A stretch of 64,000 nucleotides of DNA from Nannochloropsis oceanica (taxonomy: Eukaryota > Sar > Eustigmatophyceae > Eustigmatales > Monodopsidaceae): assembly GCA_004519485.1 (NCBI GenBank), contig CP038130.1, forward strand, positions 372,001-436,000. The letters run 5' to 3'. The position numbers and the translations under genes are program-made. A model generated the notes under the pieces. The model saw nothing but the letters and a program-made list of their open reading frames with translations. It made no database searches and was not told the DNA's origin. Positions 5,127 to 32,804 of the stretch are shown here, piece by piece. Each line of letters begins with the position of its first letter. The stretch's first letter is position 1.

Positions 5127-5843
5127 GGGGAAAGGGAGGGAGCGGTGAGTTGTACAGGAAGACTTGTCGTTTGGATAAATAATATATGGCATCCGTCGGA
5201 AGGGCACGAAGAGTGGTGGTGGTGGAGAAAGCAAGAAAGAGAGGGATTGAGGGGGGGGGAAGATCAGCTCTTGAGGCGTAAACGAAGGGCAGCAGAATGG
5301 AGGGCAGCAGATACAATTAGAGTGGACAAGAGCGTAGAAAAAAACGAGCAGATGCGAATATAAAGTGTGTCAGCGAAGAGGAAGAAGAATTAGAAGAAGA
5401 AGCGGTTCCCCTTGCATCTTGTCTCCTCCTTGTCTTTTATTTCGTGTTCTGATCTATATTTTCCAGGACAAGGAGCGGCGCGGAGGGCATTCATTACCCA
5501 CCAGCACCTTCTCGTCTTTCTGTGCTTGCTTGCTATGGCTACATTGAGACGTCGAAGGGACAGGCCCGTGTGACCGCGCTCTCTCCGCATGGTACCATCC
5601 CTATATACCTACAGGGTTCCTCTCCTCTCTTCATTTGTTCCGGGCACCTTTTTTCGGTCGTGTCATTTTTGGGGTCAGCACGATACACCACTCATATCCC
5701 TCCACTTTTAAATCCCCGTTTCTCTCTTTATTCTCCATATGGCACACTAAAAAAGCTTCCTCCAAAAAAGACTGCGCGGGCATCCTACTCGACTCATCTC
5801 ACCCTCCCTCCCTCCCTCCTTCTCTCCCTCGCCCCCCCCTTAA
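5127..5843. other. Convergent 3' flanks, no gene seen
   Basis: This stretch lies between the stop of pyruvate carboxylase and the stop of the minus-strand phytol-kinase-like gene, so it should hold both 3' untranslated regions. It contains purine-rich stretches near 5200-5400 and CCCT repeats near 5805-5840. I see no conserved reading frame or RNA gene. Confidence 0.6.
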
Positions 5844-6851
5844 CTACATCAACAGAGCCGTCGCCAACACCGACGCGACCACGGGGACACTCACATTATC
5901 ATCCCCCCAGGGCACCAGCTCCACCATCGCACACAACACACTAATCACCCCCACCCGTCCTACCACCCCAAGCGTCAAGGCTGGGACCAAGCCCCATAAA
6001 TGAAACCAGGCAATCAACCCCACACTCACCAAGAATCCAGACACCACAAACGCCCCCGTTCCTGCATAACTTTTCGTACTACTGAACGCCCACTTTTTCT
6101 CTCCCCATCTCCTCCCGACGATATCGGCCATTCCATCCCCTGCTGCCATCTGACTGATTGCCACCAGCCCCACCATGCTCTCGCGCCAAAAACTAAGGGT
6201 GGACAGAAGGAGAACAATGACGTATATCAGTGGCCCACGCAGGACCTCCGCTGGATTGCCGCTTCGGGAGATTGCAGCGACGAGACCACTGGGCTTCATT
6301 TTAATCGTAGTAGCATTCGTGAGGGTCGGAGCGTCTGGCTGCTCCTTTGCCAAGCCCGAAGCGATAACAGCGATGGCTTGGAGCAAAGGCACCGCTGCAG
6401 CGAAAAAGCGGGCGCTGGGGTCTGCGGAGAAAAAGGGCCAACACAACATAAACAGTGGACCGGAGCCGCAGTGGATAAGTTTGCGAGAGTCCTTGGAATC
6501 AACCTTACCGGACGTTGCCAGGGTAGTCCACAATTTCAACCAAACCGCGGAGGCGATCCCGACCAACGTTGCCCCACTCAGATCCTGGAGAAGGTTGGAG
6601 GGAAGGGCATGCGAACAAGTGGGGAAGGGTCTCCAGGCTGCTTGAGGGGGTGGTGTCGATAGTGCATGTCTTGGAGGGGTGAGGGTTCGGGATTTGATTG
6701 AGAGGGAAAGGGCAGAGGAAGGGGAAAAGGAGCGTGGCCGGGGTGGGATAAAAGCTGTGGTAGTTCTACTACTGCCCAGGGCACTGGTGCTGGTAACTGC
6801 TACCAGGAGGAGGAGCTGCAGGGAGGCCTGGACTCGATTGATGCTCGTCAT
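5844..6851 (-). CDS. Phytol/farnesol kinase-like membrane protein, probably plastid (VTE5/FOLK family)
   Basis: A single frame of 335 residues from ATG 6851 (MTSINRV). An in-frame upstream Met at 7082 would add 77 residues without targeting character, so I prefer the internal start. Residues 1-25 form a hydrophobic signal sequence followed by TTTAFIPPRP, resembling the Ala-Phe motif of secondary-plastid bipartite targeting. The rest has several hydrophobic spans and the family signature AGDGMADIVGRRWG near residues 237-250. Near the C-terminus is WGDDNVSVP, matching the DN-tVP motif of phytol kinases and related CTP-dependent polyprenol kinases. The family phosphorylates phytol or farnesol, feeding tocopherol and prenyl salvage. 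Dolichol kinase or another cytidylyltransferase-fold enzyme is the main alternative. Its 3' end faces that of pyruvate carboxylase. Confidence 0.78.
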   Translation of the reverse strand: MTSINRVQASLQLLLLVAVTSTSALGSSRTTTAFIPPRPRSFSPSSALSLSIKSRTLTPPRHALSTPPPQAAWRPFPTCSHALPSNLLQDLSGATLVGIASAVWLKLWTTLATSGKVDSKDSRKLIHCGSGPLFMLCWPFFSADPSARFFAAAVPLLQAIAVIASGLAKEQPDAPTLTNATTIKMKPSGLVAAISRSGNPAEVLRGPLIYVIVLLLSTLSFWRESMVGLVAISQMAAGDGMADIVGRRWGEKKWAFSSTKSYAGTGAFVVSGFLVSVGLIAWFHLWGLVPALTLGVVGRVGVISVLCAMVELVPWGDDNVSVPVVASVLATALLM

Positions 6852-7280
6852 GGTTTCAGGCACGTGGCTTGCTTCAAGGGAGAGCAGGCCCTCAGTTGTT
6901 GCTGTTGATGGTCGATGATGAAAGCGCCCGCGACAAACGTGGATGAGAGGGGGGCGAGTCAGCCTTCTGCCTGTGAATTGTTTGGAAGTGAGAGGCGTAA
7001 TGAGTATGCGGTGTTTGTGTGCGGTGACCGCACACGGCATGGAGTCGCCAAGGCATATGTTCCAGACCTCACTTTCCGACATTCATGCCCGTGCTATACA
7101 GACACAAGTACAGAGGCTGTTACGACATTCGCAAGGATCAGGAGGGCGCGTCGATCGCTTGCTGCGGTGCTGGTTGTGCCTCTTCACGTCTCCAAAAACA
7201 CGACGAGAGCGAACCTCCCACCCCCATTGCTCCTCCTTCAAAACCCCTTCCACCATAACGCATTAACCAGTTGCACAATT

Positions 7281-8894
7281 ATGGAGACCACTGCCACTGC
7301 ACCTGTCGAAGACAATTTTGAAGCCCTGGACATGGAAATGCTCATTATAGACGTTCCCCACCCTCCAAATCCAATGCCTCGCTTCTACGTTAGCGGCGTC
7401 TCGGCAACACGCAAGCCCGCAGTCCTGGTGACGCTCCAGCTAACCCACCTTGTCTCCATTGGAGCTGAACCCGGAAAGATTCTGGCTTCACAGTTTCAGC
7501 CGGGCCGTACCTCCCTCTCTTTCCCAAAAATCTTGGACATCGAAGAACAAGACCTCCTCTCCTCCCTACTTCCCACTCTCCTTCCCTTCCTCGCCGCGAC
7601 CACGCCAGAGGACACCATCCTAGTGCATTGCCAAGCCGGCCAATCACGTTCTGTTGCTGCAGTGTTGATGTACTTGATAATATGTCAAGGCCTGACCTTG
7701 GTGGATGCCCACGCCCAGGTAGCTCGGTCTCGGCCAGGGGTTTGTGTAAATCCGGGTTTCCTCCGTCAGCTTTTGTTTTTGGAAGACTTTCCCGGCTTGC
7801 GTCGCTCTCCTTTCACAGGAACCAAATGTGGCGCCAATGAATTTATCTCCGCTTCTTTTACTGACACGGAGAGCAAAGCAACCGCACTCATTCAGAGTAG
7901 CCGCAGAAGAAGTGCAATGCGCGGTTCATGGGCCGCCGAGCACCGCCTTTACCTCTTGAATAATCTCTTTCGAGTCACATGTCGTCTTTCCTCTTTGGAG
8001 CCAGTACAGGTCTGGGAAACAATCGACAATGAACACAGAAAGCTGGTAAAGTTGTTGATCAGGTATGGGCATGCTTGTCGCAAGGGTCCGCCGGTGGAAG
8101 AGGAAGGGGGGGGGGAGGAGGAAGAGGAGGAAGTGTTGGGAGAGGAAGAAGAGGCAAGGGGAAAAGGGTGGGTCGCGCGCTGTCGACATTGCCATCAGCT
8201 ACTATGTACAGAAGAAGATGTAGTGAGGCATGCGGGGGAGGAAATTGATATTTTGAAGAAGAGGACGAGGGTGAGAGCGCGAGGCATAGGCAGAGCAGCA
8301 CCAGCAGCTGAGAGTGTGTGGGGGTACGGGAGGGAGTTCGAGCGGCAGCCGGTGCTGCATTTGTTGCCCCTATCGCATGCTTGTGTGAAGACTAGGAAAG
8401 CAGAGGAGGAGAAGAGAAAGAAGGAGGGGAAAAGGAGGAATATTGAAAATGGAGAGGATGAGGGAAAAGGGGAGGGCGGCAGACATGGAAAAAGCAGGAC
8501 GACTTGTCGTCATCGTTATGTGTTCCCCCCACCATGGGTCATGCCGTCCTTGCTTACATCAGAAAGGGGAGGAGATGGCATCAGTATCACAGCCACTGAC
8601 GCCAAGGAAGGGACGATGAATGTGAGAGGAGGAATAGGGAGGGGGGGAGGGAAGGAAGGAGGGATGGTCGATCTCAGGTGCCCGGGTCGGCATTGTGGCG
8701 CTGTGGTGGGGTCAATGCAGGCACGACCGGAGGAAGGAAGGAGGGAGAAAGGAGGATGCGAGTGCTTAGAGCCGTTGCCAGTGGTAGTGGTGAGATTTTG
8801 GGAGGAGGCATTGATGAATGAATGCGCGAGAGAGGAGCGAGGGAGAGAGGGATGGAAGGAAAGAGAAGATCACGGGGGTCTGTGTGTGAAATAA
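7281..8894 (+). CDS. Dual-specificity phosphatase DUSP12/YVH1 with C-terminal zinc-binding domain
   Basis: A single exon of 537 residues beginning METTATAPVEDNF. The frame stays open upstream to 6915, but that part overlaps the divergent gene and looks unlike the family. The dual-specificity phosphatase domain covers about residues 30-180. Its catalytic loop is VHCQAGQSRS, with the nucleophile Cys117 at codon 7629-7631, followed by the family-typical ARSRPGVCVNPGF. Downstream, CRHCHQLL with a following His (about residues 300-320), then LRCPGRHCGAVVG (about 466) and CECLEPL (about 493), correspond in order to the zinc-binding domain of YVH1/DUSP12. That protein helps release MRT4 during 60S ribosome maturation. 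About 150 low-complexity Glu/Lys/Arg-rich residues split the zinc domain, unlike yeast or human relatives, so the protein is considerably longer than usual. Confidence 0.9.
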   Translation: METTATAPVEDNFEALDMEMLIIDVPHPPNPMPRFYVSGVSATRKPAVLVTLQLTHLVSIGAEPGKILASQFQPGRTSLSFPKILDIEEQDLLSSLLPTLLPFLAATTPEDTILVHCQAGQSRSVAAVLMYLIICQGLTLVDAHAQVARSRPGVCVNPGFLRQLLFLEDFPGLRRSPFTGTKCGANEFISASFTDTESKATALIQSSRRRSAMRGSWAAEHRLYLLNNLFRVTCRLSSLEPVQVWETIDNEHRKLVKLLIRYGHACRKGPPVEEEGGGEEEEEEVLGEEEEARGKGWVARCRHCHQLLCTEEDVVRHAGEEIDILKKRTRVRARGIGRAAPAAESVWGYGREFERQPVLHLLPLSHACVKTRKAEEEKRKKEGKRRNIENGEDEGKGEGGRHGKSRTTCRHRYVFPPPWVMPSLLTSERGGDGISITATDAKEGTMNVRGGIGRGGGKEGGMVDLRCPGRHCGAVVGSMQARPEEGRREKGGCECLEPLPVVVVRFWEEALMNECAREERGREGWKEREDHGGLCVK

Positions 8895-9652
8895 AAGAGA
8901 GCGGAGGAGCGAAAAGTGTACAGTGTAAACATAACCATACTGAATGCCCCACTGACAAGAAGCAGCAGTTTCTGAGTGGGCGAGAGAGCAGACAGGTAAA
9001 CAAGCATCATCGTCTTGGTCCTTATTCAAGTGACCCTGCAGTTGTTCTCTCATGCGTCTTTTTTCCGTTCTCTCTTTCTATCTTCATCGTCGCTGATTGA
9101 CGCAGGTTTCCCTCTTCGTCGACGCTGATCGACGTGGGTGAATTTTCACAAATATGACATACACATGGTTTCCGCCCTCTGCTGTTTCTCCTTTCCCACT
9201 GCTTGCCTCTCGCGGAACTAATATGTCTGATATGCACGCAATAATGCTTCTCTCTAAGGTCTTTCTCTGTCTTTCTCTGTCTGTCTGTTTCTCGTACCAT
9301 CTCTTCCTGTGGTGTCTTTTCTAAAACTCCATCGATTTGTAAGCCCGCTGTTGCTTATTGTCTGTTTTTGTGTGTTCGTGCACTTCACATCCTTCCTCTT
9401 ACCTCTCGCCTCTTTCTTCTGGTCCATCTGAATCTCTTTACTCTTCCTCTCTTCCTACAACCACTCAAAATTTTCTCACCTTCCATTTCACATTCGCACA
9501 CACTCTTCTACATCTCGATCTCATTGTCCATTAATCACAAGCTTGATCTCTGTCATATACCTTCTTACAAAGCCTCATATGTAAATTCTCTCGCCTTCTC
9601 ACTCTCATACAAAGCGCATCGTCACTTCCTCCCTCTCTCATTCCCCCGCTCC
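8895..9652. other. Convergent 3' flanks, no gene seen
   Basis: Between the DUSP12 stop and the stop of the minus-strand membrane protein. Around 9360-9640 the plus strand is T/C-rich with many short frames. I find no family resemblance, RNA gene or repeat worth naming. Confidence 0.6.
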
Positions 9653-11047
9653 TCACACCACCGTCGCTGTGCTCGCTGGCGCCGCCACCAGCGCCGCTGA
9701 GTAGGGAGGAGGTGCTCCTTCCTCTATCTCTTCCTCTTGTCTTTCCTCCAGCTGCTGTTGCGGCTGCTGCTGCTGCTGCTGCTGCTGCGAGTGCGTGGAC
9801 GAGGGGGAGGAGGACCGCAAGGATGGAGTAGACGTAGGCAGGACGTGTACGCCCATGTAGTACACTTCTTGCACAGGACTACTATTACTAATGGTGCTGC
9901 CACTACTGCTGCTGTTGCCATGCATGGAGATGTACGGGGTCACAGTGGCAGGGTGGACAGGCTCGTAATTCCCACTGACGGTACCCGGATAAGGCTGCTG
10001 CCCTCCACAAGAGATAGAAGGGAGGGAGGAAGAGGTGGAACAACACACAGCGTACAGCCCCCGGGCAAGCAGCACCGTCGAGGCCAAGAGGAGGATGAGG
10101 ACCACCATCCCCATGACGGGGGTGCTGTCGCTCGTGCCCTCGTTGCCCATTCCCGTCGGATCCAAGGGCGAGATATTCCCTCGTCCCCCAGTTCCTCCCT
10201 CTCCCTCCCCCCCTCCATCGCCTTTCCCTCCCGCCGCGCTCGGTACCGGAGTCTGGCCCATAAAAAATACCAGATTTAAACCTACCGTTACAATTAACGC
10301 CACGGCAATCGCACGCAAAAAGCGATAGAGGCCTGCATGCTTGCTAAACTTGGGGAACGCCCCCCCTCCTGCTGCTTGTTCAACTGCCTGCCTCAAGTCG
10401 GGGTTCGAGTCAATGGCGCGCCAGAACCGGAGCATTTCTTCGCGTCTCTTTTCTGTTTGGACGAAGCAAGCGACGAGGAGGGCGGAGAAAGATATCCAGC
10501 ACACCAGTCCCAGGAGAGAGAGAGCCATGACGCCGTCGGTTGTTTCATCATCGCCGTCGTAGGGGGCGTCACCACTTGTCCCGTCAAAGTCAGTGGTGGG
10601 CTCGTCATCTTCTTCGTCTTTAAGTTCTGCGAATTCAGCTTTCGTGAGAGTTTCTACGCCGGGAGGAGGACGGCGATGGAAGACGACCTCGGCTCCTTCG
10701 TATGGTAAGAGGCTTTCTGTACCAGCCGTAGAGGGCACCAACACTTTCGTGTTTGGAACAACATTTTTGGCAGAATGCAAAGAAGATGTTTGATTTCCAG
10801 CTGTGTTGTCAAATGTGGGTTTTAAACTCGAATCTTTGACCGGCATAACTAGGAAAGGCAAGTGTGCAGTGGCTGCTGCTGCTCCTCCTGGTGCTGCTCG
10901 AGTCAGTCTCGATTGACCTGCCTGACGCCTGACACTCTTGGAGTTTCGTCCCGCTTCCGTGATAATGGGCAGCAGAGAAAAAATAAAGAAGGAGAGGAAT
11001 ACGGCCACAGCCAGGAGCAGGCGGGGACGACGACGGGGAGGGCTCAT
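9653..11047 (-). CDS. Unidentified three-span membrane protein with signal peptide and PPPY motif
   Basis: A single-exon frame of 464 residues from ATG 11047; I do not recognise a family. Residues 1-31 look like a signal peptide or signal anchor (LLLAVAVFLSFFIFSLLP). An acidic, presumably lumenal or extracellular stretch follows (about 130-172). Clear membrane spans lie near 173-195, 243-263 and 311-336. The C-terminal tail of about 130 residues is Ser/Pro-rich, has a Gln tract at 421-432 encoded by CAG/CAA repeats, and carries GAPPPYSAAL near residues 444-453. PPPY is the classic ligand for WW domains of NEDD4-type ubiquitin ligases, which suggests an adaptor or ubiquitylated cargo if the tail is cytosolic. 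Function is otherwise unknown. It is divergent from the HtrA-like gene. Confidence 0.8.
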   Translation of the reverse strand: MSPPRRRPRLLLAVAVFLSFFIFSLLPIITEAGRNSKSVRRQAGQSRLTRAAPGGAAAATAHLPFLVMPVKDSSLKPTFDNTAGNQTSSLHSAKNVVPNTKVLVPSTAGTESLLPYEGAEVVFHRRPPPGVETLTKAEFAELKDEEDDEPTTDFDGTSGDAPYDGDDETTDGVMALSLLGLVCWISFSALLVACFVQTEKRREEMLRFWRAIDSNPDLRQAVEQAAGGGAFPKFSKHAGLYRFLRAIAVALIVTVGLNLVFFMGQTPVPSAAGGKGDGGGEGEGGTGGRGNISPLDPTGMGNEGTSDSTPVMGMVVLILLLASTVLLARGLYAVCCSTSSSLPSISCGGQQPYPGTVSGNYEPVHPATVTPYISMHGNSSSSGSTISNSSPVQEVYYMGVHVLPTSTPSLRSSSPSSTHSQQQQQQQQPQQQLEERQEEEIEEGAPPPYSAALVAAPASTATVV

Positions 11048-11781
11048 GATGGCGGCTTGTGTGATATGCCGAGGATCAGGATCTCATACTAGAATGCTGC
11101 CTGCAGCACACACCTTGCCGGTGGAGGAAACCTCGGCCGCTAACTGACCTTTTCTGGAAGGCACTTTTAGGAGGGCCCTTGACGCGCTGCCTCCCTGTGT
11201 TTCAGTAGCGTGTGTATAAAGAGTGGGAGATAGCGGTAGCAACTTGAACGAGCAAAAGGACGAGGAGCAGCGCCGGGCCTCAGGCCTTGGTAAGCGCTCA
11301 GCGTTCAACGTTCTCCCCACAGCCTCCTAGACAAGTCAACCGGAGCAGGACAAGGGAATGAATATCAAAACCACCTCATTGGGCACTCAAGCCATGTTCC
11401 TGTGGCTCTGGGATATACATTGGATTGTGACATGCCTCAGGGCGGCATCTCCGGAGTCCTCGTGTTGGCGAGAGACGTTCCTGTCGTTTATGCTGCGCTT
11501 TTGACACCACCACCATAACCACATTTATCCGGGTCTCACTCAGTCCATGAGCTTGATATGTACCTTCTTGGATTGTGGCCGTCATCGTGATACCTGCCGT
11601 GGTGTATTCATGGCCACGTCTGAAGCAACCCCCTCCTCACATTCACGTTGCCTCCATAGGGAGATTTAACACTCACAGGCATGCCACTTTGGTGCTAGTA
11701 CAGCCAGGACAAACAAGCCTTGCAGTCAGACAGCTGGAAAGAGAGTGTTGTCAAGCGTCGCGGACGGATCGTGGATCAACC
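11048..11781. promoter_or_regulatory. Shared upstream region of two divergent genes
   Basis: These 734 bases separate the start codons of the minus-strand membrane protein and the plus-strand HtrA-like gene, so they must hold both 5' flanks. The HtrA frame is open upstream to 11575, but those residues have no targeting character. No defined promoter motif can be named. Confidence 0.5.
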
Positions 11782-14700
11782 ATGACAGCCTTCAGCACCT
11801 GTAGTCGCAGGCCCAGGTCACTTCAAGGCCAAGCGTTGCTCGTCCTCGTCCTCGTCATCATCCTCGCGTTGTGCAGAGGAAGAAAGACCCTGACGCCGTC
11901 AGCGGGGACGAGCGTGGGAGCGTTTGTGAGCCGTTCAGACTTAGGATTCAAATCTCGCCAGCCATCAGCTTCCCCCTCAAAGCGCCCGCTCATTGCCGCC
12001 ACAGCCCTGCCAACTACCCTTTCACCTCATCGCGCCCGCCTCGCCCCCCTCTCCGCAGGCATGTGGCGTTTCGATAAAGAGCTGACCCAGCCTCAATCAC
12101 AAGAGAATGGTGATGATTCGGGGTTTGATCCGCCGGGAAAGGGAATGTTTCGGTTTGTGTGGGGGTTGCTAAAAAAACGCACGGTGCAAGCAATAGGCAT
12201 AACGGCGTTCGCCCTCAGTGCAGTCAAAAATGGGGGCGGAGGAAGGAAAGCAGCGGGGGGAAAGGTTGGAATTCTGGATGGTGGCGGAGCAGCGAATGCT
12301 CCGGAGCGGTATGTGAGAAGTAAGGATCCCGACGCCTCATCCAAACAGCAGCAGCGGGAGCAGGAGCAAGAGCAGCCGCAAAAGCAGGAGCATAAAATAG
12401 CGGGAGCTGGAGCAGGAGCAGCATCTAAGTCAGCTGCTGTGCCCCTGCCAGATGCTGAGTGCCCTATTTTGCCTCCGGACGACAGCAGTAGCGGCAGCAG
12501 CAGCAAGAAAGGAACTGCGGAAGAGCCAGCAGTACCTGCAGCAGTACCATCGTCAGAGCAGCAGCAGCATCAGCAGCAGCAGGACGGGGAAGCGTCAGGT
12601 ACAGCTGCAGCAGATTCTCTTGCTCCCGAGATAAACAAAGAGGGAGGGAAGGAGGCCAGGTCACCTTGGACACCATTTAAGAACTGGAGGAGCAAAGAGA
12701 GGGGGGCGAGGGAGGGAGAGAAGGTTGTACTGCGGCAGGAGCAGCAGGAGCAGCAGCCACGGAAGGATAGAGAGGAAGCGGTGGGAGAAGGTATTACACT
12801 CAATAGAGGGACAGCGAAAAAAGATGAGGGGGCACCTGCGACAGATGACAGCAAGCAGGGCGAGCAGAGGGAAAATGTCCAGGACCGCATCAACCCCGAA
12901 GAGGAGGAGGCGGAGGCTGAAGAGGAGGAGGAGGTGGAGGAGGAGGAGGAGATGGAGGAGGATGGGGATGGCACCGTGCCATTTGATGAACGCGAATCTG
13001 CCCTTCTGGAGGATGGAGAGGCCTTCCTCGCACGCCGTGGGACTACTCAGCCCGGGCAAGCCGCCACCTCCGGTTCCCGTGCCACCGGCAAGAAGAAGAA
13101 CGACAACAACGACAAAAACGACAACAAACAAAGCAAAAGGCAACAGCAGCAGCAAAAGCAGCAGCATCAGAAAAATAAACATCCCTCCGTCGTCCCAAGA
13201 CCCGATTCTGGTGTCTCCTCCCCGTCTACCACCAAGCTCTCTATCCCCCCCTCCCTCCATCCCTCCCGGCCGGGGGGCTCCTCCTCCTTTGTCTCAGGTG
13301 TGTTCCGCGCCATCGCCCCCGCCGTTCCGCGCGTCGACTGCGTGAAAGTTTACAAGGGAGAAATAAAATTCGCCTCCGGTTCGGGCGTTATTTTCACCCC
13401 GGAAGGGTATATGATAACCAATTCTCTTCTTGTGCGGAACGCGTTGGAGTTGAAGGTGACACTTGCCGACGGTCGAGAATTTCCCGCCGAGGTGAAGGGG
13501 GTGGATGAAGTCCTCGATGTGGCGGTGCTTAAAATCCTTCCTCCCTCCCCCCCTCCCTCGTCCTCGTCCTCATCCTCGTCCTCGTCCTCGTCCTCATTCC
13601 CTTCCTCTTTTGAATACGCGCCAATCGGAGACTCGGACGCCCTGCAAGTAGGCGATTGGGTGCTATCGGTGGGTAGCCCTCGTTCCCCCGGCCCTTCCGT
13701 CATCCTAGGCATTGTTAGTGGCCTCACCAAAACAGCTGCAGAAGTGGGTCGGCCCGAGACGCAAGTCTCCTTCATCCAAACAGACGCGAGTTTCGATGCA
13801 GGTGTTGTGGGAGGCCCCCTGGTGAACGAGTACGGGGAGGTGGTGGGGATCAATAGCATCGGGCTCACCACCAGCAACACAGTACAGTTCTCTGTCCCGA
13901 TCAATGAGTTGAAAGTGGCCGTGGAAGAGCTGGCTATGGGGAATGAGGTCCTGCATCCATCCATTGGGGTGGAGATGATGCCCGTCACTCCCACCCTTGC
14001 TGCTCAGCTGAACCAGAAGGCAGCGGCAAGACAGCGGCAAATCCAGGTTGAGCAGGAGGAGAAGGCAGTGAAAGAGCTTGCGGAGCAACAGGAGTTGCAA
14101 CGAAAGGAGCAACAGCAACCGCAGCAGCAGCAGGCAGAGAAGGGAGGAAAGGGCGCGAGAGGACAAAGAAAAAGAGGTGGAATGGAAAGGGGGAGAAGTG
14201 CCTTCTCTGAAATTTTGCGCAAAGCTCAACAAGCAGGCAAGCACCTCCTCCAACAACCTCCACAAAACCACTACCCACCCTCTCCCTCCCCCTCCCCTTC
14301 CCCGCCGTTTTCTCCTTCCACACCCTCCTCCTCTTCCTCTTCTTCGTCCTCTTCCTCGCAAATCCATTTCATCCCCGAGGGGGGCGCAGTGGTGGTCGTC
14401 AACGTTCTAGAAGATTCCCCTGCCCAACAAGCAGGCCTGCAGCACTTGGACATTCTGCTTGAGATCGATCGATGCCCCATCTACAAGGTGGAAGATGCGC
14501 AAAGGATCATCCACGCGTCCGGGGTCGGGAGGGACATAGAGATAAAGGTACTAAGAAGCACACAGGAAGTCACTGTGCAAGTGAGGACGACTGATTTTTT
14601 GACTCTGTTTCGAAAGCAACAGACGGCCAAAAGGTACCCTGAGCTGAAGCCAAAGGTGGAGAGGAAGAGGGAGGGATTGAACGAGGGGGGAAGGGAACAG

Positions 14701-14946
14701 TTGGAGAGGGAGGGGGACGGGGAAGAGCTGGAGGAATCGCCGTTGGGAGGGAAGGGGGGGCTGCATCAGCGGTCGGCGAGTAATGATGGGAAGGGAGGAA
14801 ATGAGAGAGGTGAAGAGAGAAAGAAGACGGGGTTGATGAAACAGAGTAAGAAGGAGGAGAGGCAGATGAGGGAGGAGGAGGGAGATAGACAGGCAACAAA
14901 AGATAGGGAAGCACCAGATGAGATGCATGGAGAATTGTGGACTTAA
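11782..14946 (+). CDS. HtrA/Deg-like PDZ protein, predicted catalytically dead, probably plastid-targeted
   Basis: A single exon of 1054 residues from ATG 11782 (MTAFSTCSRR). A hydrophobic signal segment at about 18-34 is followed by SVGAFVSR, consistent with bipartite plastid import. Residues 100-510 are low complexity (Gln-, Glu-, Lys- and Ser-rich). The trypsin-like HtrA domain spans about 515-730: GSGVIFTPEGYMITN, LDVAVLKI, PIGDSDALQVGDWV, FIQTDASFD, GGPLVNEYGEVVGIN. A PDZ domain is at about 865-940 (VLEDSPAQQAGLQHLDILLEID), then a charged tail. The catalytic His is replaced by Leu549 (TNSLLV where TN-HVV is usual) and the Ser by Val676 (GVVGGPL where GNSGGPL is usual). Asp579 is kept. 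I infer a non-proteolytic scaffold or chaperone. Poly-Ser inserts lie inside the protease fold and before the PDZ. Confidence 0.9.
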   Translation: MTAFSTCSRRPRSLQGQALLVLVLVIILALCRGRKTLTPSAGTSVGAFVSRSDLGFKSRQPSASPSKRPLIAATALPTTLSPHRARLAPLSAGMWRFDKELTQPQSQENGDDSGFDPPGKGMFRFVWGLLKKRTVQAIGITAFALSAVKNGGGGRKAAGGKVGILDGGGAANAPERYVRSKDPDASSKQQQREQEQEQPQKQEHKIAGAGAGAASKSAAVPLPDAECPILPPDDSSSGSSSKKGTAEEPAVPAAVPSSEQQQHQQQQDGEASGTAAADSLAPEINKEGGKEARSPWTPFKNWRSKERGAREGEKVVLRQEQQEQQPRKDREEAVGEGITLNRGTAKKDEGAPATDDSKQGEQRENVQDRINPEEEEAEAEEEEEVEEEEEMEEDGDGTVPFDERESALLEDGEAFLARRGTTQPGQAATSGSRATGKKKNDNNDKNDNKQSKRQQQQQKQQHQKNKHPSVVPRPDSGVSSPSTTKLSIPPSLHPSRPGGSSSFVSGVFRAIAPAVPRVDCVKVYKGEIKFASGSGVIFTPEGYMITNSLLVRNALELKVTLADGREFPAEVKGVDEVLDVAVLKILPPSPPPSSSSSSSSSSSSSFPSSFEYAPIGDSDALQVGDWVLSVGSPRSPGPSVILGIVSGLTKTAAEVGRPETQVSFIQTDASFDAGVVGGPLVNEYGEVVGINSIGLTTSNTVQFSVPINELKVAVEELAMGNEVLHPSIGVEMMPVTPTLAAQLNQKAAARQRQIQVEQEEKAVKELAEQQELQRKEQQQPQQQQAEKGGKGARGQRKRGGMERGRSAFSEILRKAQQAGKHLLQQPPQNHYPPSPSPSPSPPFSPSTPSSSSSSSSSSSQIHFIPEGGAVVVVNVLEDSPAQQAGLQHLDILLEIDRCPIYKVEDAQRIIHASGVGRDIEIKVLRSTQEVTVQVRTTDFLTLFRKQQTAKRYPELKPKVERKREGLNEGGREQLEREGDGEELEESPLGGKGGLHQRSASNDGKGGNERGEERKKTGLMKQSKKEERQMREEEGDRQATKDREAPDEMHGELWT

Positions 14947-15391
14947 ATTAGGCGATCGCGTCTGTGGTTTTGGAGAAGAGAGACATCGTGAATATATACA
15001 TATACATGTATTTTCTTACATACAAATCAAATTAAACCAGACTTGCCCGCAGCAGATAAAACAAATATCCTCATTTTCCCACAATCAATGGACCGATTAA
15101 AATTTGTTGGAACTTTTTTGTGGTTGCTCTTAGGTTTAGTGACAAAACAACAGAAACAGAATCACGACACGTAAAATGAAAGGAACAACTTTACATAGAG
15201 ATGAGGATAGCGGATATTTGATCGGAGCTCGGAACGAGAGGCAGTCTCTTTGTGGCAGCGCCTTGGCGAAAGCCATTGCGTTCATGTCCCATACAGCGAA
15301 AGCAAATGCACTAATTTCAACTCCAATGATAAATGTATATAGCTCTGCCTTATATTCATTTTCTAATATACTTGCTTGCTTTCCAAGGCCC
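14947..15391. other. Convergent 3' flanks, no gene seen
   Basis: Between the HtrA-like stop and the stop of the small UQCC6-like gene. It is A/T-richer than the coding parts, with ATATACATGTAT at about 15000-15011, a motif that recurs behind other genes in this window. No gene is supported. Confidence 0.6.
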
Positions 15392-16042
15392 TCATGGAGC
15401 CCTTTTCTCAACGTCTTCCTGGAAAGCAGAAGGCGGCGACGACGGTAAATCTGGAATGGTCTGTATGTACCAGAGTAAAAAGAGATATGAGATTCAAAAA
15501 AGTTTGAAAGCATGAAAGGATTTGTGTGTGGAAAAAAATGATCTTTTTGCGGTCTGACGGCCGGTTGCAACATGGGATCTGAAAAGCAGATGACCATCCT
15601 TTCAGCACCATCACATTCTTCAGCGTGCGACCTATCCCGCACCTGCCTATCTAATTTTCAACATTCACCCTTCCAAGTAAAAAAAATGCACTCACCAAAT
15701 CTGTTGTGTGTGAGAAGGAGAAGCAAGAGCGAACGGCAGCATGTGGGGTGTGCGTGTGTAGTGTAGCGTGAGAGACACGCGGCGGGAGTGGCAAACGATA
15801 CAACAGCACGATACATACCTGGCTTATAGAAATTATGGACGATTGATCTTTGAGTGGAGGAGAATGAGGATGGACAGGGAAATGGGAAGGAAAATGAGTC
15901 GTCAAGCCGTACAGCACAGGACCCTTTTGGAGTCCTCCCTCTACCTCCGCTTGACTTACGCGCCAGCCAGCAAGGAGAGATAGGCGACGGGGAATAGGAA
16001 AATATACTTGACTGCCTTGCCAAAGCGGGAAGCTCCGGGCAT
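15392..16042 (-). CDS. UQCC6/BRAWNIN-like small mitochondrial membrane protein, four exons with a 5-base microexon
   Basis: Joining 16042-15960, 15847-15819, 15700-15696 and 15460-15392 gives a 61-residue protein with no internal stop. All three introns have GT..AG ends (donors GTAAGT, GTATGT, GTGAGT). It starts MPGASRFGKAVKYIFLF, has one membrane span (about residues 13-27), and then the motif VHNFYKPDLTIPDLP just after the membrane. I know the VVHxYYxPDLTIPEIPP motif and the MP-start/single-span/AGA layout from human UQCC6 (C12orf73, BRAWNIN), an inner-membrane micropeptide needed for complex III assembly. The PDL residues exist only if the 5-base exon ATTTG is included; skipping it breaks the frame. 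The predicted role is respiratory complex III assembly. Too short to prove by eye, but the motif match across three splice junctions is unlikely by chance. Confidence 0.82.
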
Positions 16043-16385
16043 GGTATTGGTGTGCTGTCGAGTGCAATAGCGTGGCAGAGATGGAGATTGAGGTGGGTGG
16101 GGAGGTTGCCGGTGTGAGTACCTGGAACCTGGGTCTGTATCCTCCTTCGAGGATAGAAGCGCCTTTCGAAGAGGGAAAAAAAGCCCCTTCTTCCCTGTGC
16201 TATGTAGCGTGGGATGTTGATAAGGAAAAAATGAGTGTTTGATTCCTCCTTTCTTCAGTCGCCACACAAGCGTCTTCGCCATCATCGCCCCTCAAGAATT
16301 AAATGCTCAACATCCCACAGCATCCCACGCGCTGTCCATCGGTGCAACAAGACGACGTACATTAGTAGCGACATCAGTCCTCGCA
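16043..16385. promoter_or_regulatory. Divergent promoter region, UQCC6-like / ZC3HC1-like
   Basis: The 343 bases between two start codons on opposite strands must contain both 5' flanks. No specific element is recognised. Confidence 0.5.
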
Positions 16386-18106
16386 ATGGCCACAACGCGG
16401 CGCGATCCCAGTCAGGAAGACGTGGATGAAGCATCCTCGACTCTACGTGCCTGCGTCGATCGAGACCTTCTGGCCGAAATTTGCCATGGGGACAGCCTCG
16501 GAGCTGGTAACCACCGCGCATCCACGCACTCCTCGTTGGTATCGACATCATCTCCGCCTTGGAAAGGTACGTGTGGCGGCGGTATAGTGGTTTGTGCTGA
16601 TGCAATGCGTGGATAGAATAGTTTCTTTGAGCATCGCTTTCATCTTTACGCCCACGGTCTGCCTCAACTTTCAACGCCCTTGTGTCCACACGCCCTCAGT
16701 AAGCAGTAACATGGAATTACGCTGCATAACAGCACATCGATCACCACAAAGCATTCCATATGCATGCCCTCACTGGTTATATCCTCCTCCTTTCCGAACA
16801 CCGACATATCTCTCCCGAACATAATAGACGAGTCCCTCCACAAATGCCGTCCTTGGTCCGAAGCAGATTTCTTCCACCGCCTTCGCACATTCACACCACA
16901 ACATTGGTTTGGCAAGAGCTTGCTCGTGGCACCCCCACGATGCGCGGCGCAGGGATGGGTAAACTCGTCGACGGATACGTTGGAATGTCAAATGTACGTC
17001 ATGGAATGGCTTCGTCGGAAATACGTCGCCTCCCCTCTTTCTGTATATTTGGTGTTTATGTCAGCTCATGATCATTTGTTTGATATCAGCATGAAGATAA
17101 AAACGAAGATGATTTTTCTCATTCATTCCCTCCATCATCCTCTTCCTTTCGCTGTACAAAATGCAGATGTCAAGCCACCCTCACCCTTCCCAGCAACTCG
17201 GAACCCGCTCCTGACATCCTCTCCTCCTCCCACTCCATCACCTGTCCCTGGGCCCACCAAGCTTGCGAGCCCGATGTTTCACATTTCCCTCTTGTAACCG
17301 CTGAGTGTTTGCTTACTCATACGGCGCGTCGCATGGGCGGCATTCGTCCTCTTCTCCAAGCATACAAAGGAGATTTAACAGTTAAAGTACCTGAGGAATT
17401 CAACAAGCTGATGGCTGGGTGTAAGATTCAGGGGGGAGGAGTGGGGGAGGGGAGAGACGGAGTGGGTAGTTTGACCCTGGAGGCGCTGGCACGGCGGGTG
17501 GAGGAGTGTATTGAGGATGATGCTGGTGGTGGTACAGCTGGTGCTGGAGCAAGGGAAGGAGGAGGGGTTACGGTGGAGGAGGAGAAGAGGGAAGACGAGC
17601 AAGCATTGGAGTTGAAGGGGAATGGGTTGATATTGGCTTTGCATGGATGGGAGGCAGGGCCTCCACCACGGCAGCCAGAGAGTGGAGGAAGAGGTGGAAG
17701 AGGTTGGGCGTTAATCTGTGGTATGTGCGGACGTCGGGTAGAAGTGGGGAGAGTGGTGGATCGAAGGAGCAGCTTGGGGAGTGGTCGTATGATGGAAGGA
17801 GGGGGAGAAAAAGGCGAGGATGTAGGAAGGGCCAAGGCGCGACGAGTTGGAGGGATGGCAGGACCCGCGGCGTTTGATGTCATGAACCAGCATCGATGGT
17901 GGTGTGCGTGGGTGTCGCGGGGGCTGGATGAGAAGGGCCAGCCGGGATGGCGGCTGACGCTCAAGACATTGGTGGGCCGCATGCGTCGGATGGTGGAGCT
18001 AGGGAAATTGATGGAGGACGAGGGTGATAGTGGGGATAGGAGTTGGGGGGTGGGGTCGTCGTCGTCGTCGTACGCACGAGCGAAGAGATTGCTTGATGGC
18101 ATGTGA
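16386..18106 (+). CDS. ZC3HC1/NIPA-like C3HC zinc-finger protein
   Basis: Exons 16386-16566, 16828-16993 and 17167-18106 join in frame to 428 residues (donors GTACGT, GTACGT). The C3HC zinc finger covers about residues 67-150: CRPWSEADFFHRLRTF, HWFGK, PPRCAAQGWVN, LECQIC made by the second splice junction, and TCPWAHQACE. A second conserved block, CGMCGRRVEVG (about 301) and NQHRWWCAW (about 355-363), matches the Rsm1/NIPA C-terminal zinc motif. Human ZC3HC1 is a nuclear basket protein; yeast and plant relatives also sit at the nuclear pore or act in mRNA export. Nuclear location is therefore likely. Between the blocks are Gly/Glu-rich inserts. The splice that yields CQIC is chosen because it is the only one restoring both frame and CxxC. 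Confidence 0.86.
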
Positions 18107-18541: not shown

Positions 18542-21500
18542 ATGGTGCTCAGCCACCTCCTGACCCCGTTGCTAACTTCGATTTTGGGGGATTACCTCCA
18601 GCCCGCGTGCTTCCAAGAGGACTCCCTCCGCGTGGGGCTCTGGCGGGGCCACGTCGAGCTCTTCAATGTATGTCTCAAAGACGACATTCTTGATCTTCTT
18701 GGCCTGCCTATCACGCTGCGACTCGCGCGAATTGGACACATCGAGATACAAATCCCGTGGAACCAGCTTGGGGGGAAGCCAGTGGTGGTGAAAATCGAGG
18801 AAGTCCACGTCCTTGCCTATGCTAAATATCAATGGGAAGACGCAGAAAATAAACGCCGCCTCGAAGCCATCAAGCAAGCCCAGCTCCGTGCCGCAGAGGA
18901 GAAGGCTGAAGACACATCGAAAGATTTTGGGCCCACGGCGAAAGAAGCCGCAGCGGCGGCGGCTGCGGGACCACCTGGGGGAGCTAGCGGAGGGACGCAT
19001 TGGTTGATGCAGGGATTGCTTAATCAGGTGCTGGATAGGATCCAGATCGAGGTCCGGGATGTGCATATTCGGTTTGAGGATTTAGTGAGCAGTCCGAGTT
19101 TGCCGTACTGCTTTGGATTGACATTAAAAGTGTTTAAAGTCAGCAGACAGGGCCCCTCTAGAAGGGGTCATGCCCCAAGGCCGGCCCCCCTGAAGTTTCC
19201 CATGTCTAGCGGCGGCAGCAGAGGCAGTGGTGAGGCGGAGGGGGAAGATGATAAGAGAGGCAAGGAGGTGCTTAAGGTCGCACATATTGAGTATTTGTCC
19301 GTGTACTGCAACCCGGTGAGTAACGATGATTTGGTCTCGATGGCTCTGCATGAGTTGGAGAGCGATGAGGAAGTGGACCTGATGCTGGCTCGACTATTGC
19401 CGCAAGAATCAGTGGCGTTGTCGGAATCCCTGGGGGTGGGAGGGGGAGGGGAGGGGAAGGGCAAGATTGGGAGGAGAAAGGATGGGAGCAGGAGGTCGGG
19501 AGGGTTGAAAGGGGGAAGAAGTGACTGGACAGAGGAGGAAGACCCTGAAAAAGCCGAGCAGGAGAAGGGAGAGGACGAGGGCGGAGAGGAAGAAGAGGAA
19601 GTTGAGGAAGACGAAGAAAGGGAGAAAGCTAGCCGGCAGCGCCAGTCACAACAAGACGCGGAGCGGCTTGGGGGGCATCGTTTCCTCCTCCATCCAGCTC
19701 GAAGCACGTCTTATTTTTGGTTGGGGAGTCAGGCACAAGAACCGGGCAGTGCACGGAGGACACGAGTTGTACGCGCTCTCTTGGGCCTGGACCGCTTGAT
19801 GATCACCTTGGAAGACCTTTTACTGCGGTCAGTCCTGTGTTTGTCGGCGGGGTTGGTTCGATTCCAGACCATGAACCGATTAGGGGTGAAGAGGCCGAAT
19901 AAGGGGATCGGGGAAGACCCGAGGGCGTGGTGGCGCTATGCATATGAGGTGGTGTTGATGAAGTTGCACGAGCATCGAGGGAAGTACGACTGGAGCAGTG
20001 TTTTGAGACGGAGGAAAACACGGCTGCGGTATGTCAGGTGCTGGAAGAGGTGGGTGACAGGGAGGAACCGAACGAGGGAGGAGGGAGAGGAGGAGCAGGA
20101 AGGGGAGGAGGCGGAAGGGGGCAGTCAAGACGTTGGCGAAAAAGAAGAGGAAGAGAAGGAGGAGCAGGAAGACAATCTGCTTAAGCAGAGGCGGGAGAGG
20201 CTGAGTCGGAAGATTAAGGAGCTCGAGGCTCATTTGTCTTATAAAGATATTTTGCTTTATCGAAAGCTTGCCGACGCGCAGCTGAAGGAGGAAGGGTGGA
20301 CGCCATCCAAAGAGGCTAGCACAGGGCGAAATGGACGGTGGTTGTCGTTTTTGAGAGCAGCAGATTGGAAGAGTGCCGATCCAGCAGAAATATCGGCACC
20401 GGCGTATGCTGCAATGATTGTCCATGTCGAGCTGGCGCTTCAGGGTGGGGAGGTGCGGCTGGCTTCGCGCGGCAGCAGCAACAGCAGCCTTGGGTTGTTG
20501 GTGATGGAGAAGGGAGAAAGCAAAAGGACGAGCTTTTTGCGGGCCGTAATTAAGGATTTGCTGCTGCGAGCGTCGGCAGATAGTGGAGTGGGGCTGCAGC
20601 GTTTGGAGGTGTCTTTGGAAGACGCCCGGATTGAGAGCCGAACTGGCTCCTCTTCGTCCTTCCCCCCCCACCCCTTCAACAATGACGCTTTCAACGATCA
20701 GGACAAGGAGGAGAAGGAGGACGAGGATGGTCATAACTGGTCTCGTCTCATCTCCCGGCGCATCCGACCGCTAGGCCCGACCCAATCGGCCCACTTTTCG
20801 AGCCACAACCCTCTCTTCCGACTCACATACCTCCGCCTACCCGCGGGCTCGGCCTTTGTCGCCGACGTCCGTTTGGCCGTGGACGAAATAGAGGCAATTC
20901 TGGTACCAAGTGCCCCATGGCTTCATTCCATTCATTCCTTTCTTGATTTACCGGATTTGGCCGACTCGTGGGTGGAGCTTGAGATGGTCGCCTTGTCAAA
21001 TTTGCATGGATTAAAGGAGCAGGTTGACGCTAAATTGGAGTACCTTGTGCAAACCCGCCCAGAAGTAAAGCTTAGAATAGAGGTAAAGGGGCCTTTGTTA
21101 ATGATTTTGCCGCCTGTGGACGAGCCACTCGCGCCAGAAGTACATGTGGAAATAGATGCGGTTTCCTTGCGGAGTTTGGATGTGGAGGGAGGGGGAGGGA
21201 GGGAGGAGCATGAGCGGTGGAGGGTATCAGATGACGGGGCTGGGAGAGGAAGAGAGGGAGGGATAAAAGAAGGGCTGCCGCCGTTGGATTTGTTGGTGCA
21301 TCGATCGTCATGGCAGTCTTTGGGGTCGTCTTTGTCGGATGGAGGAGGGGCAGAAGGAGAGAGGGGGGGACATATAGTAGATGTGCTGTGCCAGCAACAG
21401 CACACACAGCGATTCGGCGGCACAGACGAAGACAGAGACCTGCTCACGGGTGAGTCCTCGTCTGCGTCCATTGCGCCACCACCCGAGGAGCTCCCCACTC

Positions 21501-23166
21501 CCGTAGAGGCAGCAGAAGGAGCAGGAGTCGGAGCAGCAGGGAGGGGCTTAGGCTCGTCCACAGGGAGTGTCGACAGCATGGGAAGCACCTCCCGGCCCGG
21601 GCTCAATCAATTTTACGATCGATTGCAGATCAATATTGTCGGGGTCAAGGTAGGCTTACTGCCAGCAAAAGGAATCAGGCTAGTCCCGTTCCTGGATCCT
21701 TCGGCAGTAATGGCTTCGGTGGCTGTTTCTCGCTTACCCTCCGACCCACAGCTACCTCGATTGCAGCTCTCGGCCCGTACTGGTGAGATCAGCATTAGGC
21801 TATCTTCCAGTGTGCTGAAGCAGCTGACACGCTTGGGGGTTGCTTGTTTGAGGACCACTCAAAAGACGAACGTAGACATCGAGCAATTGCGGGCCAAGTT
21901 CGAAAGTATGGCCGAGAAAGGAACGTCGATGACGAGGTTATCCTCCTACTTAAATATGTCGGAAGGGAGAAAGGGTAGGAGGGAGGAGGGCGAGGGAGAG
22001 GGGATGTCGCCATTCAGACCCAGAGGGAGGAGTGGCAGTGGGGCCTTGATTTGGCTTTCGCCTGCAGGAGGAGGTGGAGGGCTTGACTTTTACGATGCCC
22101 ATTCAGTCTACTCGGCAGGAAGCCTCTCGACCCTGTCTCGTCGATCCTCCTCCTCGTCGGCGACGGCAAAGATTAAGTCACGACGGCAACAACAACAACA
22201 GCCACAACAACAACAACAATCACAACAACAACAACAACAACAGCAAGAAGAGGAAGGGAAAGGAGGAGGGAGGGCGGGAGGAGGGAGGGAGGGAAGTGTG
22301 GCTAGCAGTGGAGGGGTGTCTGTGCGCTCGGCTAAGACGGTGCAGCATGACAGCAGCAACGCTGGGGAGGAAGGAAGAAGGAAGAAGGGAAGGAAAGAAG
22401 GAGAAGGGGTACTTCCGCATTGGGAGGGTGGAGAGGAGGAGGTGGACAACCAGAACGAGGAGGAAGAAGAAGAGGAAGACGAGTTTTTTGATACCCAGGA
22501 GGGGTATCGCTCGGACGAGGACGCGTTCCGACATGCGTTTGGGGCGGAGGCGTTGTCTTTCTTGGAGGAGGAGGAGCAGGAAGAAGGAGAGGAGGAGGAC
22601 GAGCAGGAGATAGGGGAGGGGACGGCCTTGTATCGAGGCTTGTCTGGACGGGCAGCTGCGGCCTTTGCCAACGTAGTGAAGGAGGTCATGCAGCAGCAGC
22701 AGCACCAGGATCTGGGGGAAGATGGACAGGAAGGAGGACAAAAAGGCGTGGAGCAACGTAATTACCATGACTACCAGCAGCAGGGACAGCATCTACCGCC
22801 GTCGGGATATTCATGTAAAAACTGGCGCTTGCTGCGAGTGGAATTTTCCTTGCCCCGCGTCCAGGTCAGCCTATGGGGCACTGGCACGTCGCTTGAGGCG
22901 CTGGAGGGGGAAGCAGATGATGAAGGGGAGGTAGGAGGGACGGGTGCTGAGGCATTGATGACTGTGTGGGCGGTGGGATTTGGGATTAAATACACGGCAG
23001 AATCTTTTTTGCATCGTCTACGGGTGAAGCTGGAGGACCTGACGGTGTCTTGCCGGGGAGCCCCGCCGGAGATGCCTCTCTTTCGGCTTGGCGCTCCGTT
23101 GCCCTCGCCATCCTCTTTTGTTCATGAAACGAATTATCGTAGTAGTCATGGAAATGTCGGTTATAT

Positions 23167-23200
<34 letters not shown>

Positions 23201-24593
23201 AGCCAGCGTCACCACACCAGCACTGCTGCCTCTACCAACAACCCTCTCTCCTCCTTCCCTTCCTTCCCTCACCTTCAACACCCTTCTCCTCCACCTCGTC
23301 CTTCGTCGGTCATTGATTGCGGCCACCTAGGAGAAGACCCATTCCAGCTCCTCTTTCAACTTGTCCGCGATCCTGATCCCGCTGCAACAGGTCGTCTCTT
23401 TCGAAGCTTGCAGTGTAGTGTGCGTGTCGCTGCCCTCGCCTCTCATTTGGATCAAGAAACAGCTGCCGAAGTTTTGAGAGTTCTTGCGCCATTGGCAAAG
23501 CTCATGGCCATCTCATCGGCAGAGGGAGAAGGGGGGGAGGGAGGAGGTGAAGGAGGGCGAAGAGAAGGGATGCGACTATCGGCCTCGGGTTTGAATCATT
23601 CGAGATCATGGGCAGGACCAGGAATGGCACCCCTGTCGTCTTTTTCTCCTTCAGCTGCTGCCGATGCTCTTCCTCCCCTTCCTGCGACCTTCTACGATGG
23701 TGGAGGCACGCCGGCAGGGAGCTTTATGAACAACAGCAGCACTAGCACCAGTTCCAGTGGCAGCAATCGACGAGTTCAAGCCCCTCATATTCATCTATTA
23801 TTAAAAACTCAAGGCGCTCGGTTAGCGTTAGTACGTGGACCCCAAGTCTCGGTACTTTTGGCAATAGGACCGACGAGCTTCGATTTGAAACCCAAAGCAG
23901 ATGGAGCTATTCTCGCCTGCTCTTTGCACTTGATGGACCTGGAGCTGCAAGCCGTGGAGGAGAGCACACTCTACCCTCATCGTATCCTCTCTCACCCTCC
24001 TCACGCCATCGAACCCATCCTGGCAGTGACTGCCTCCGTCTCGACGTCGTTGATCCTTCCTCCTGTTCCTTCCGTCTTGCCTGGGACTATCTTGATACAG
24101 CAGAAACAGCAGCAGCATCAAGCACAGCAGTTTTGCGACGTGAATATGCGCTTAAGAGGTTTGTCTGCTTTCCTCCCAGTGAAGTCGATGGTTAAACTCG
24201 GCCAGCAAATATTGAAGGGCCCTTTAATTTCATACCTGATCGCAGCAACAGCAGAAGCAGCAGCAGGAGGGGAGAGCAGCAGTAAGACACCAGTGAAAGA
24301 AAGAGATCCTTTCTTCTCCCTCTCGGCTTCACCACCGGCGTCGCCTGCGCCGCTTTCTGGTGGAGGCTCTTATGTGGGCGGAGCTACCACCACTACGACT
24401 GCTGCTGCTGCTGTGACTACTGCCTCTGCTACTGTCATACAACCGCAGGTCAAAGCTGTGGTGTCCATAACCCAGAGCTCGGTCTGGGTGCCATTGCAAG
24501 ATGGCCAGCATGGGGAATGGCAGGATGCTTTGGTTCTGAAGGTAGACGAGTTGCAGAGCTCTTTCCTAACCGATAGTGCTATCCTTGCAGCAC

Positions 24594-24626
<33 letters not shown>

Positions 24627-27600
24627 AAGGAGTCAATGAAGAAGTAGCCGCGGTATCCGTGATCGTCAACGGCGTTGCATTGGAAGAGAGCGGGGAGGAA
24701 GGAACGCACTCCATCCTTACTCTCGAAGCCGCTGAGGGCACTGTCAAGCTTTACGACGATAGGATTCATGTCGACACGAAATTAACCCAGCTGGTGGGAG
24801 AGGTAGAAGCAGAATCAGTAGTCTTCCTCCTCACCCTCAACGGTCAAATTCAGGACATAATTGACCGCGACTTGGATTCGTTGCTCTCTTCTCCTATCGC
24901 GCAAACTCTGATGGGCAATCCGATGTATTCCTCCCGCAGAGCTGAGCGACAACTGCTTCACAAGGTCTTGTCGCCTGATACCAGGATGGAGAGCCCGTCG
25001 CGTTCTCCAATCCTTTCATCGCCATCTTTTACACCACCATCAGCAGCACCCCCGATCTCGCCGGCGGTTGTCGCCGCCCCCCCTCCATCGTCTTGTACTG
25101 CTTTGCTGCCGGCGTCAGAGTTCAGTCTGGGTATGAAGAAAGACCTGCTCGTGACACTTCAAAGCAACGGCCTCCATGTAACCTTCGGTGTCAGCAGCAG
25201 CAACAACTTGAGTAAGACCCACCCAGGAAGCCCCCCTACATTCGCTGTTACCCCTCCCCGCGGCCACGGTGGCAATAGCAGCATCAGCAGTAACAGTAAC
25301 AGTAGCAATGACAGTTTTCTTCTACTGGTGGTGGAGGGTTTGCAAGGACATTTGTCGGCAGGAAAGGCAGGGAGCGGAGGAGGACTTAATGTGGAAGCAG
25401 CGGTGGGGCAAGTGCGGTTTTTGCATGGGCAAGGCTCGCATGGTGCGGAAACGTATGTGGAACTCTGTGGGCCGACGGCGGTAGGGATGGAGGAGGAGCA
25501 GCAGGGTGTGTGGGAGTCTATTCGAAAAAGAAAAAGCAGCAGCAGTAGTAGTAGTAGTAGTAGTAGTAGTAGCAGCAGCAGGAAAAATAGTAGGGAGGAA
25601 AGAAAGGAAAGCCCGCCTCATTTGGGGGTGCGCGGTAGTATAAGCGGGAGTCCGCGTGTAGCTGTTGAGCTGGGTTTGTATCTGTACCCGACGGACTGGA
25701 CAGGCACTTTGCCGGGGCTCACTGCTATTCACTCTGCAATTCAAAACATTAATCGGGCCTTGACCTTAACGGCGGCACAGCAGCATCAGTACAAGGAGAC
25801 GAGTTTGGCACATACAGCCATTCTTACACCACAGAAAATGTTCCGTGCGGGTGGTGGAGGAGGAAGCGGTTTGCCTTGTCTGACCCCTCCGAGACAGGAG
25901 GGAGTGGGGTTGATTGCCTTGTTGCAGGCCTTGCAGGAGGGACAGATGGAGGGTGAGGACGATGACCTCGTGAAACGAAAGCTCCAAAAAGCTATACGTC
26001 AGGGGATCCGTGCCGGGCCCGTGACATTAGCTAGCATAGAAGTGGCAGTGGCCATTGGGACCCAGCAGATGACAGTGTTAGATTTCTCCTCTTCCTCTTC
26101 CCCCTTCTTTCCATCCTACTCGCCTGCCTTCTCCCGGGACAGTGGCAATCAGCTCCACCACATGGCCCATTCGACACAGGCATTGGTCCTCCAGGTTGAC
26201 ATGGGTTTTAATGCCTGCCTCGTGCCTGTCTACGAGGAGGAAGGAGGGGAAAAGCAAGGGGAGGAGGGATCGAGACAAGGAGAAGCGGTCGTTAACCACG
26301 TTGCAGGCAAGGTCAAGGCCACGGGGCATGGATGGCAAGTAATGCTTCAACGTCTACGCGTACCTCACATTTCATCGTCATCGTCGCCCTTTTGCTCCTC
26401 CCGCCCATCATCATCCTCCTTCCGGTCGCCAAGGTCGCCCTTCTCTACCCCTACTCCTCTCCGTTGGAGCAGCTTGATTGTCCGTCATGGAAATGGAGAG
26501 ATTCAGCGCGAATCTACAGAGTTAGAAGCAGAGCAACGCCTCATCTCCCCCATTACCTGGGATCTTGATGCGAGCAGCACACTCGACTTGTCTCCAACTA
26601 GCATTCGAGCACTGCTGGGGGTGGAAGCGACTTTGAGGGTTGAACCTCTAGAGGCCTGGGGTTTTTCGGATATCAGCGCCTTGGAACATATCTTCTCTTC
26701 TACTCTTCTCCCAGGCTTGGCATTTTTCACTCCATCAACAGCATCACCTGGAGGAGCAGCAGCAGCATCAGCATCAGCAGCAGCATTAGCAGCAGCAGCA
26801 GGAGGAGGAGGAAGAGGAGGAGGAGGAGGAGACCGTAATGACTTGTCGTATCTGGTACAGAAGCTGCCAATCGCAGCGGTGGAAGACGAATACCAGGCCT
26901 CCGGTTGGACACCAGTGGCTGCAGTACTTAGACTATTAGAGTTCATGCATCTCCGCCTTTTGATTTCCGTGGAATCGATTCATTTGACAGCGATAAACAA
27001 TTTGTGTCGTCCGGCTGTCCCATTTTCAGATGTCACCTTTGGAGGGCCTTTCGTTGTTAAATTAGACGCCACGGATGGCGTGGTGGACGCGAAGCTCCAC
27101 TTAGGCATCAAAGCCAAGTATTTCAATCGTCGTCTGGTCCTTTGGGAGCCCTTGCTGGAGCCATGGATGGCCACGGCAACACTCACGGCGGGGTGCCTCC
27201 CTCCCTCTCTCGTGTGCTGCGCTACTTTCGACCATGCAAAATCAGCAGGAGAAGAAGCAGCAGTCAGGATGTTAAGTGCCACCCGTTCTCGGCGATCAAA
27301 ATCGAAGCTGTACAATTTGACGTCTCCTCGGCGCAGCGCCCTGAATCTCGCTGATGAATTAACACTTGCTCCATTTCTTATTCCTCCTCTTCCGCGACGA
27401 AAGCGGCGGCAGTATTTCGCATCGTGTCGGGTCACTTCTGCAGCAATAGCTAATCTTAATGTGACTGAAGCTTTTCTCGAGAGCTTATCGAGTGTCAGCC
27501 TCGCGTTTGGCAAAGCTCAAGCACGATTGAAAAGCGGAGGTTGTGTAAGAAGAGTCGGTAGAGGAGAAGGAGTAGGAGGGAAGGGAAGGTCGACACCGGC

Positions 27601-32716: not shown

Positions 32717-32804
<88 letters not shown>

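Follow-up and report, generated by a model that had tools for sequence, protein, structure and literature searches.

The gene lies on the minus strand of the 64-kb window (the whole stretch of DNA analysed), between two plus-strand open reading frames (ORFs) at 11575-14946 (Trypsin_2 and PDZ) and 17309-18106 (NuBaID_C). It is predicted to consist of four coding exons, the third of which is only 5 nt long. The exons and introns, together with a rival form of the last exon, are located as follows.

15960..16042, minus strand: coding exon 1, 83 nt; start codon at 16042; hydrophobic segment (from sequence, translation and hydropathy)
15848..15959, minus strand: intron 1, 112 nt; gtaagt..caaag
15819..15847, minus strand: coding exon 2, 29 nt; SIVHNFYKP
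15701..15818, minus strand: intron 2, 118 nt; gtatgt..aacag
15696..15700, minus strand: microexon ATTTG, 5 nt; supplies the second and third bases of the Asp codon and the entire Leu codon of PDL
15461..15695, minus strand: intron 3, 235 nt; gtgagt..tacag
15392..15460, minus strand: coding exon 4, 69 nt including the stop codon; TIPDLPSSPPSAFQEDVEKRAP
15392..15450, minus strand: rival shorter last exon; internal acceptor ttccag/ATTTACC, which would need no microexon

Joined in the order 16042-15960, 15847-15819, 15700-15696 and 15460-15392, the exons of 83, 29, 5 and 69 nt give an open, in-frame coding sequence of 186 nt for a product of 61 aa, MPGASRFGKAVKYIFLFPVAYLSLLAGASIVHNFYKPDLTIPDLPSSPPSAFQEDVEKRAP, whose motif-bearing part is VHNFYKPDLTIPDLP. 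All three introns have GT-AG ends (gtaagt..aag, gtatgt..cag and gtgagt..cag). The exon coordinates, lengths and boundaries of the original prediction, as well as its open coding sequence, were all confirmed; the joining of the four exons is itself predicted from the DNA sequence. The product is small and has one N-terminal hydrophobic segment, with the hydropathy peak at residues 13-31 (mean 1.97, the best among the 13 listed 19-residue stretches).

The neighbouring ORF at 11575-14946 encodes 1123 aa in an HtrA/Deg-like layout of Trypsin_2 and PDZ with long low-complexity stretches. The NuBaID_C match of the ORF at 17309-18106 is weak and barely over the cut-off (21.3 bits vs. 20.2). Downstream of the latter, an uninterrupted frame of 4874 aa (18542-33166, plus strand) contains long Asn, Gln and Ser tracts, and its first 653 aa match VPS13_N.

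Similarity of the predicted product to the UQCC6/BRAWNIN family

Comparison of the 61-aa product with Pfam gave a match to PF14990 (DUF4516) of 54.4 bits (E 1e-14, cut-off 27), in which residues 12-48 align to profile positions 9-45 of 46. The sole other Pfam family listed, GPR_Gpa2_C, is a weak match below its cut-off (16.7 bits vs. 21). The human BRAWNIN/UQCC6 sequence used here for comparison matches PF14990 with 79.3 bits, next to which the algal match is modest. The algal product falls into the same Pfam family as this human protein. In a single direct comparison of the two proteins, 16 of 33 residues are identical and 26 of 33 are similar (E 9e-14). With the splicing predicted here, the four-exon product carries the PDLTIP core after a Val-His...Tyr motif (VHNFYKPDLTIP). 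Searches against solved structures returned no match to the algal product at E up to 10, and only two unconvincing matches to the human UQCC6 (E 0.12 and 0.51).

A protein this small could resemble the family by chance, or could be a decayed copy. The resemblance was measured against other splice products, enumerated with up to three introns, GTRNG donors and HAG acceptors. Among 435 distinct products from ATG 16042, the claimed product ranks first in comparison with human UQCC6, with a BLOSUM62 score of 104. None of 240 ATG starts picked at random in the window exceeded 47, in a control that is lenient because the median start gave one product, some starts giving thousands of products and one at least 20000. 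Together with the canonical splice sites and the family E-value of 1e-14, these scores leave chance resemblance or decay strongly disfavoured, with a negligible probability.

With the same four-exon splicing, an ATG further upstream in the same frame (16285 or 16282) might serve as the start; the protein would then be up to 142 aa long, with a possible targeting extension. Such a start would be compatible with the four-exon gene. From 16285 to the end of exon 1, no stop codon interrupts the frame (open over 15956-16285, minus strand), and the longer product scores 51.9 bits against PF14990. However, ATG 16042 has an A at -3, and the human protein begins at nearly the same alignment position, leaving the upstream start improbable.

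A six-frame search of the genome with the PF14990 profile found no match, which partly bears out the claim that the gene is easily missed, although the finished 61-aa protein used as a query does recover exons 1 and 4. With an E-value limit of 10, the same query matched this locus only, in a search that another copy made of short exons could escape. Among prokaryotic contigs, 354 stretches fit a search pattern and none was confirmed as a relative; among viral contigs, searched with the two-sequence alignment, 43 fit and again none was confirmed.

The 5-nt exon against other splice readings

The original prediction held that only this combination of exons gives a clean frame, which is incorrect: 154 models, with 151 distinct products, share exon 1 and the start point of exon 2 and run to a stop codon. 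Among them, the model joining exon 2 to the acceptor at 15450 within exon 4 ends at the same stop without the microexon. The claimed model is singled out by the family motif, not by frame alone.

Scoring with the PF14990 profile placed the four-exon model ahead of seven other readings by 9 to 42 bits. Skipping of the microexon lowers the score to 40.9 bits (13.5 below the four-exon model), joining of exon 2 to 15450 to 42.5 bits (11.9 below) and use of an 8-nt alternative exon at 15650-15643 to 45.4 bits (9.0 below), each of these three rivals still being above the PF14990 cut-off. Exon 1 alone scores 12.3 bits, and exons 2-4 alone 30.4 bits. The 8-nt exon, which would give KPDRQTIPDLP, was rejected on its score and on the acceptor context, with a pyrimidine share of 0.25. 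Retained introns were rejected as well: the frame stops immediately when intron 1 is retained (28 aa, 12.3 bits), and TIP is lost when the intron after exon 2 (36.4 bits) or the one after the microexon (41.7 bits) is kept.

The microexon has canonical flanks (aacag/ATTTG/gtgagt), and its inclusion restores both the reading frame and the family motif. Exons 2 and 4 are separated by 358 nt, and this gap contains one AG-5 nt-GT element that encodes an in-phase Asp-Leu. Dinucleotide shuffles of this gap, with patterns picked after the exon had been seen, produced an AG-[Asp-Leu 5-mer]-GT in 197 of 20000 cases, and Asp followed by any of the looser hydrophobic codons tested in 473 of 20000. The Asp-Leu pattern appeared in 2 of 20000 shuffles when YAG and GTRAGT sites were required, and in 1 of 20000 with YAG and GTRNGT. 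Across the 64-kb window, where the patterns were likewise chosen afterwards, the plain AG-Asp-Leu-GT form occurs four times on both strands, and YAG-N5-GTRAGT with any five bases occurs nowhere on the plus strand and once on the minus strand, at the microexon.

The three-exon model, in which exon 2 is joined directly to 15450, is the serious rival: since the spliced sequence contains CCAGATTT two times, PDL can be rebuilt without the microexon. It would yield a UQCC6-like protein of 56 aa with KPDLPSSPP replacing KPDLTIPDLP; its frame is open to the same stop, it passes PF14990 at 42.5 bits and it requires no unusually small exon. However, this model gives up 11.9 bits and the core TIP. It would also leave two features as coincidences: the ten bases before 15450, which encode an in-phase TIP (ACC ATT CCA) right after another AG, and the presence in the gap of the window's sole YAG-N5-GTRAGT, strong as AG-ATTTG-GTGAGT and encoding Asp-Leu. 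The pyrimidine share before the acceptor is 0.55 at 15450, compared with 0.70 at 15460 and 0.75 at the microexon. The microexon is preferred on account of these otherwise coincidental features, and because TIP, which the human protein also has, raises the family score. Judged from the DNA letters, the three-exon model thus appears quite improbable.

The microexon may also be alternatively spliced, which would be compatible with the four-exon gene: inclusion would give the full protein, and skipping a frameshifted 54-aa or an in-frame 56-aa product, tuning the amount of active assembly factor. Both skip products are open, and of the two splice isoforms described for human C12orf73, the shorter has the lower stability (PMC7066179). 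However, plant microexons are said to show intron retention more often than skipping (PMC8831610), and this putative regulation is regarded as unlikely. A splicing switch, in which the 5-nt exon would determine how much functional complex III assembly factor is made, is putative and very unlikely; if true, the alga would tune its respiration through five bases inside the motif core.

The original prediction, a gene resembling BRAWNIN/UQCC6 and including a microexon of 5 nt, is thus supported, with PF14990 matched at twice the cut-off and three rival splice forms outscored. We put the probability at roughly 85% that this is a nuclear gene, seen in one copy, homologous to UQCC6 (BRAWNIN, C12orf73, Drosophila Sloth2) and containing a constitutive 5-nt microexon.

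Proposed function and partners in the genome

The human C12ORF73 protein occurs in a complex with UQCC1, UQCC2 and SMIM4 and interacts with newly made cytochrome b (PMC8719881). BRAWNIN is an inner-membrane protein with a C-terminus that, judging from proteinase K assays, appears to lie on the intermembrane-space side; in zebrafish without BRAWNIN, the assembled complex III dimer is gone (PMC7066179). The fly proteins Sloth1 and Sloth2 help complex III to assemble (PMC9681215). By analogy with this work on animals, the algal product probably acts at an early step of building complex III, as a protein of the inner membrane. Its hydrophobic segment would anchor it in the mitochondrial inner membrane, with the conserved VHxxYxPDLTIP region on the intermembrane-space side, and newly synthesised cytochrome b would be its client, handled together with a homologue of UQCC1 (CBP3). 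The spliceosome of the alga would include the 5-nt exon by default.

Searches for partners in the genome found an exon of the ubiquinol-cytochrome c chaperone (UQCC1/CBP3) family on contig C22 (26.3 bits, cut-off 21.5) and a neighbouring exon below the cut-off (17.5 bits). A GT-AG intron joins the two in frame; the scores given are those of the separate exons. This family profile matches in the bacterial controls too. The intron of the UQCC1/CBP3-family gene (L002 1501-2044, on another contig than the microexon gene) is rich in CCCTCC runs. Cytochrome b-type genes are located on contigs C31 (38,068 bases) and C32 (117,556 bases), which fits these being the mitochondrial and plastid contigs of the alga, and a Rieske membrane anchor is encoded on C9. 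The presence of the UQCC1/CBP3 family and of cytochrome b in the genome therefore means that the inferred client and a likely partner exist. The UQCC2, SMIM4 and BCS1_N profiles had no match in the genome; these blanks are weak because the profiles matched no control genome either and because split genes are missed, as the microexon gene was by the PF14990 profile.

Comparison with known systems

In its first description, the complex III assembly family was presented as one conserved in vertebrates, and it is reported to be missing from yeast (PMC7066179 and PMC8719881); the original prediction took its motif as a vertebrate hallmark. That view does not hold, since homologues of Sloth2/C12orf73 have been published for Drosophila, Arabidopsis (AT5G57080 and AT4G26055) and Plasmodium (PF3D7_0709800), so that the PF14990 motif is not vertebrate-specific; in Arabidopsis and Plasmodium, only Sloth2-like homologues were found (PMC9681215). 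In the alga, too, the SMIM4 profile had no match, in a search that is uninformative. A probable algal member of the family fits an old origin of the factor.

The algal product resembles UQCC6/BRAWNIN/C12orf73 in size (61 aa vs. 71 aa in the human protein), in its one hydrophobic segment and in the AGAxxVHxxYxPDLTIPxxP core, scoring above the family cut-off. In contrast, its C-terminal tail is shorter than that of the human protein and dissimilar. The gene structures differ as well: the algal gene has three coding introns and a 5-nt exon, whereas the zebrafish ORF is described as lying in two exons (PMC7066179).

Microexons of 1-15 nt are recorded in plants, including a 5-nt case in rice and 1-nt cases in APC11 and VPS55 (PMC8831610). 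The algal exon is similar to them in being a very small internal exon with canonical sites, and the plant ones are described as often absent from annotation. However, it occurs in a different lineage and in a different gene. Among the literature matches listed, the term microexon was absent for algae, and the open-licence literature yielded no paper on microexons in Nannochloropsis or Phaeodactylum. An algal UQCC6 with a 5-nt exon was not found there either, in a family literature that was covered partly and in which a prior mention is possible.

The protein family, its non-animal members and exons down to 1 nt in length have already been published; what looks new is a probable member from an alga with a 5-nt exon in the core region. 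Since the protein family is known, the chief interest is in the 5-nt exon, which lies within the most conserved part of the protein and provides a clear test case, as well as an example of a gene that escapes exon-by-exon profile search.
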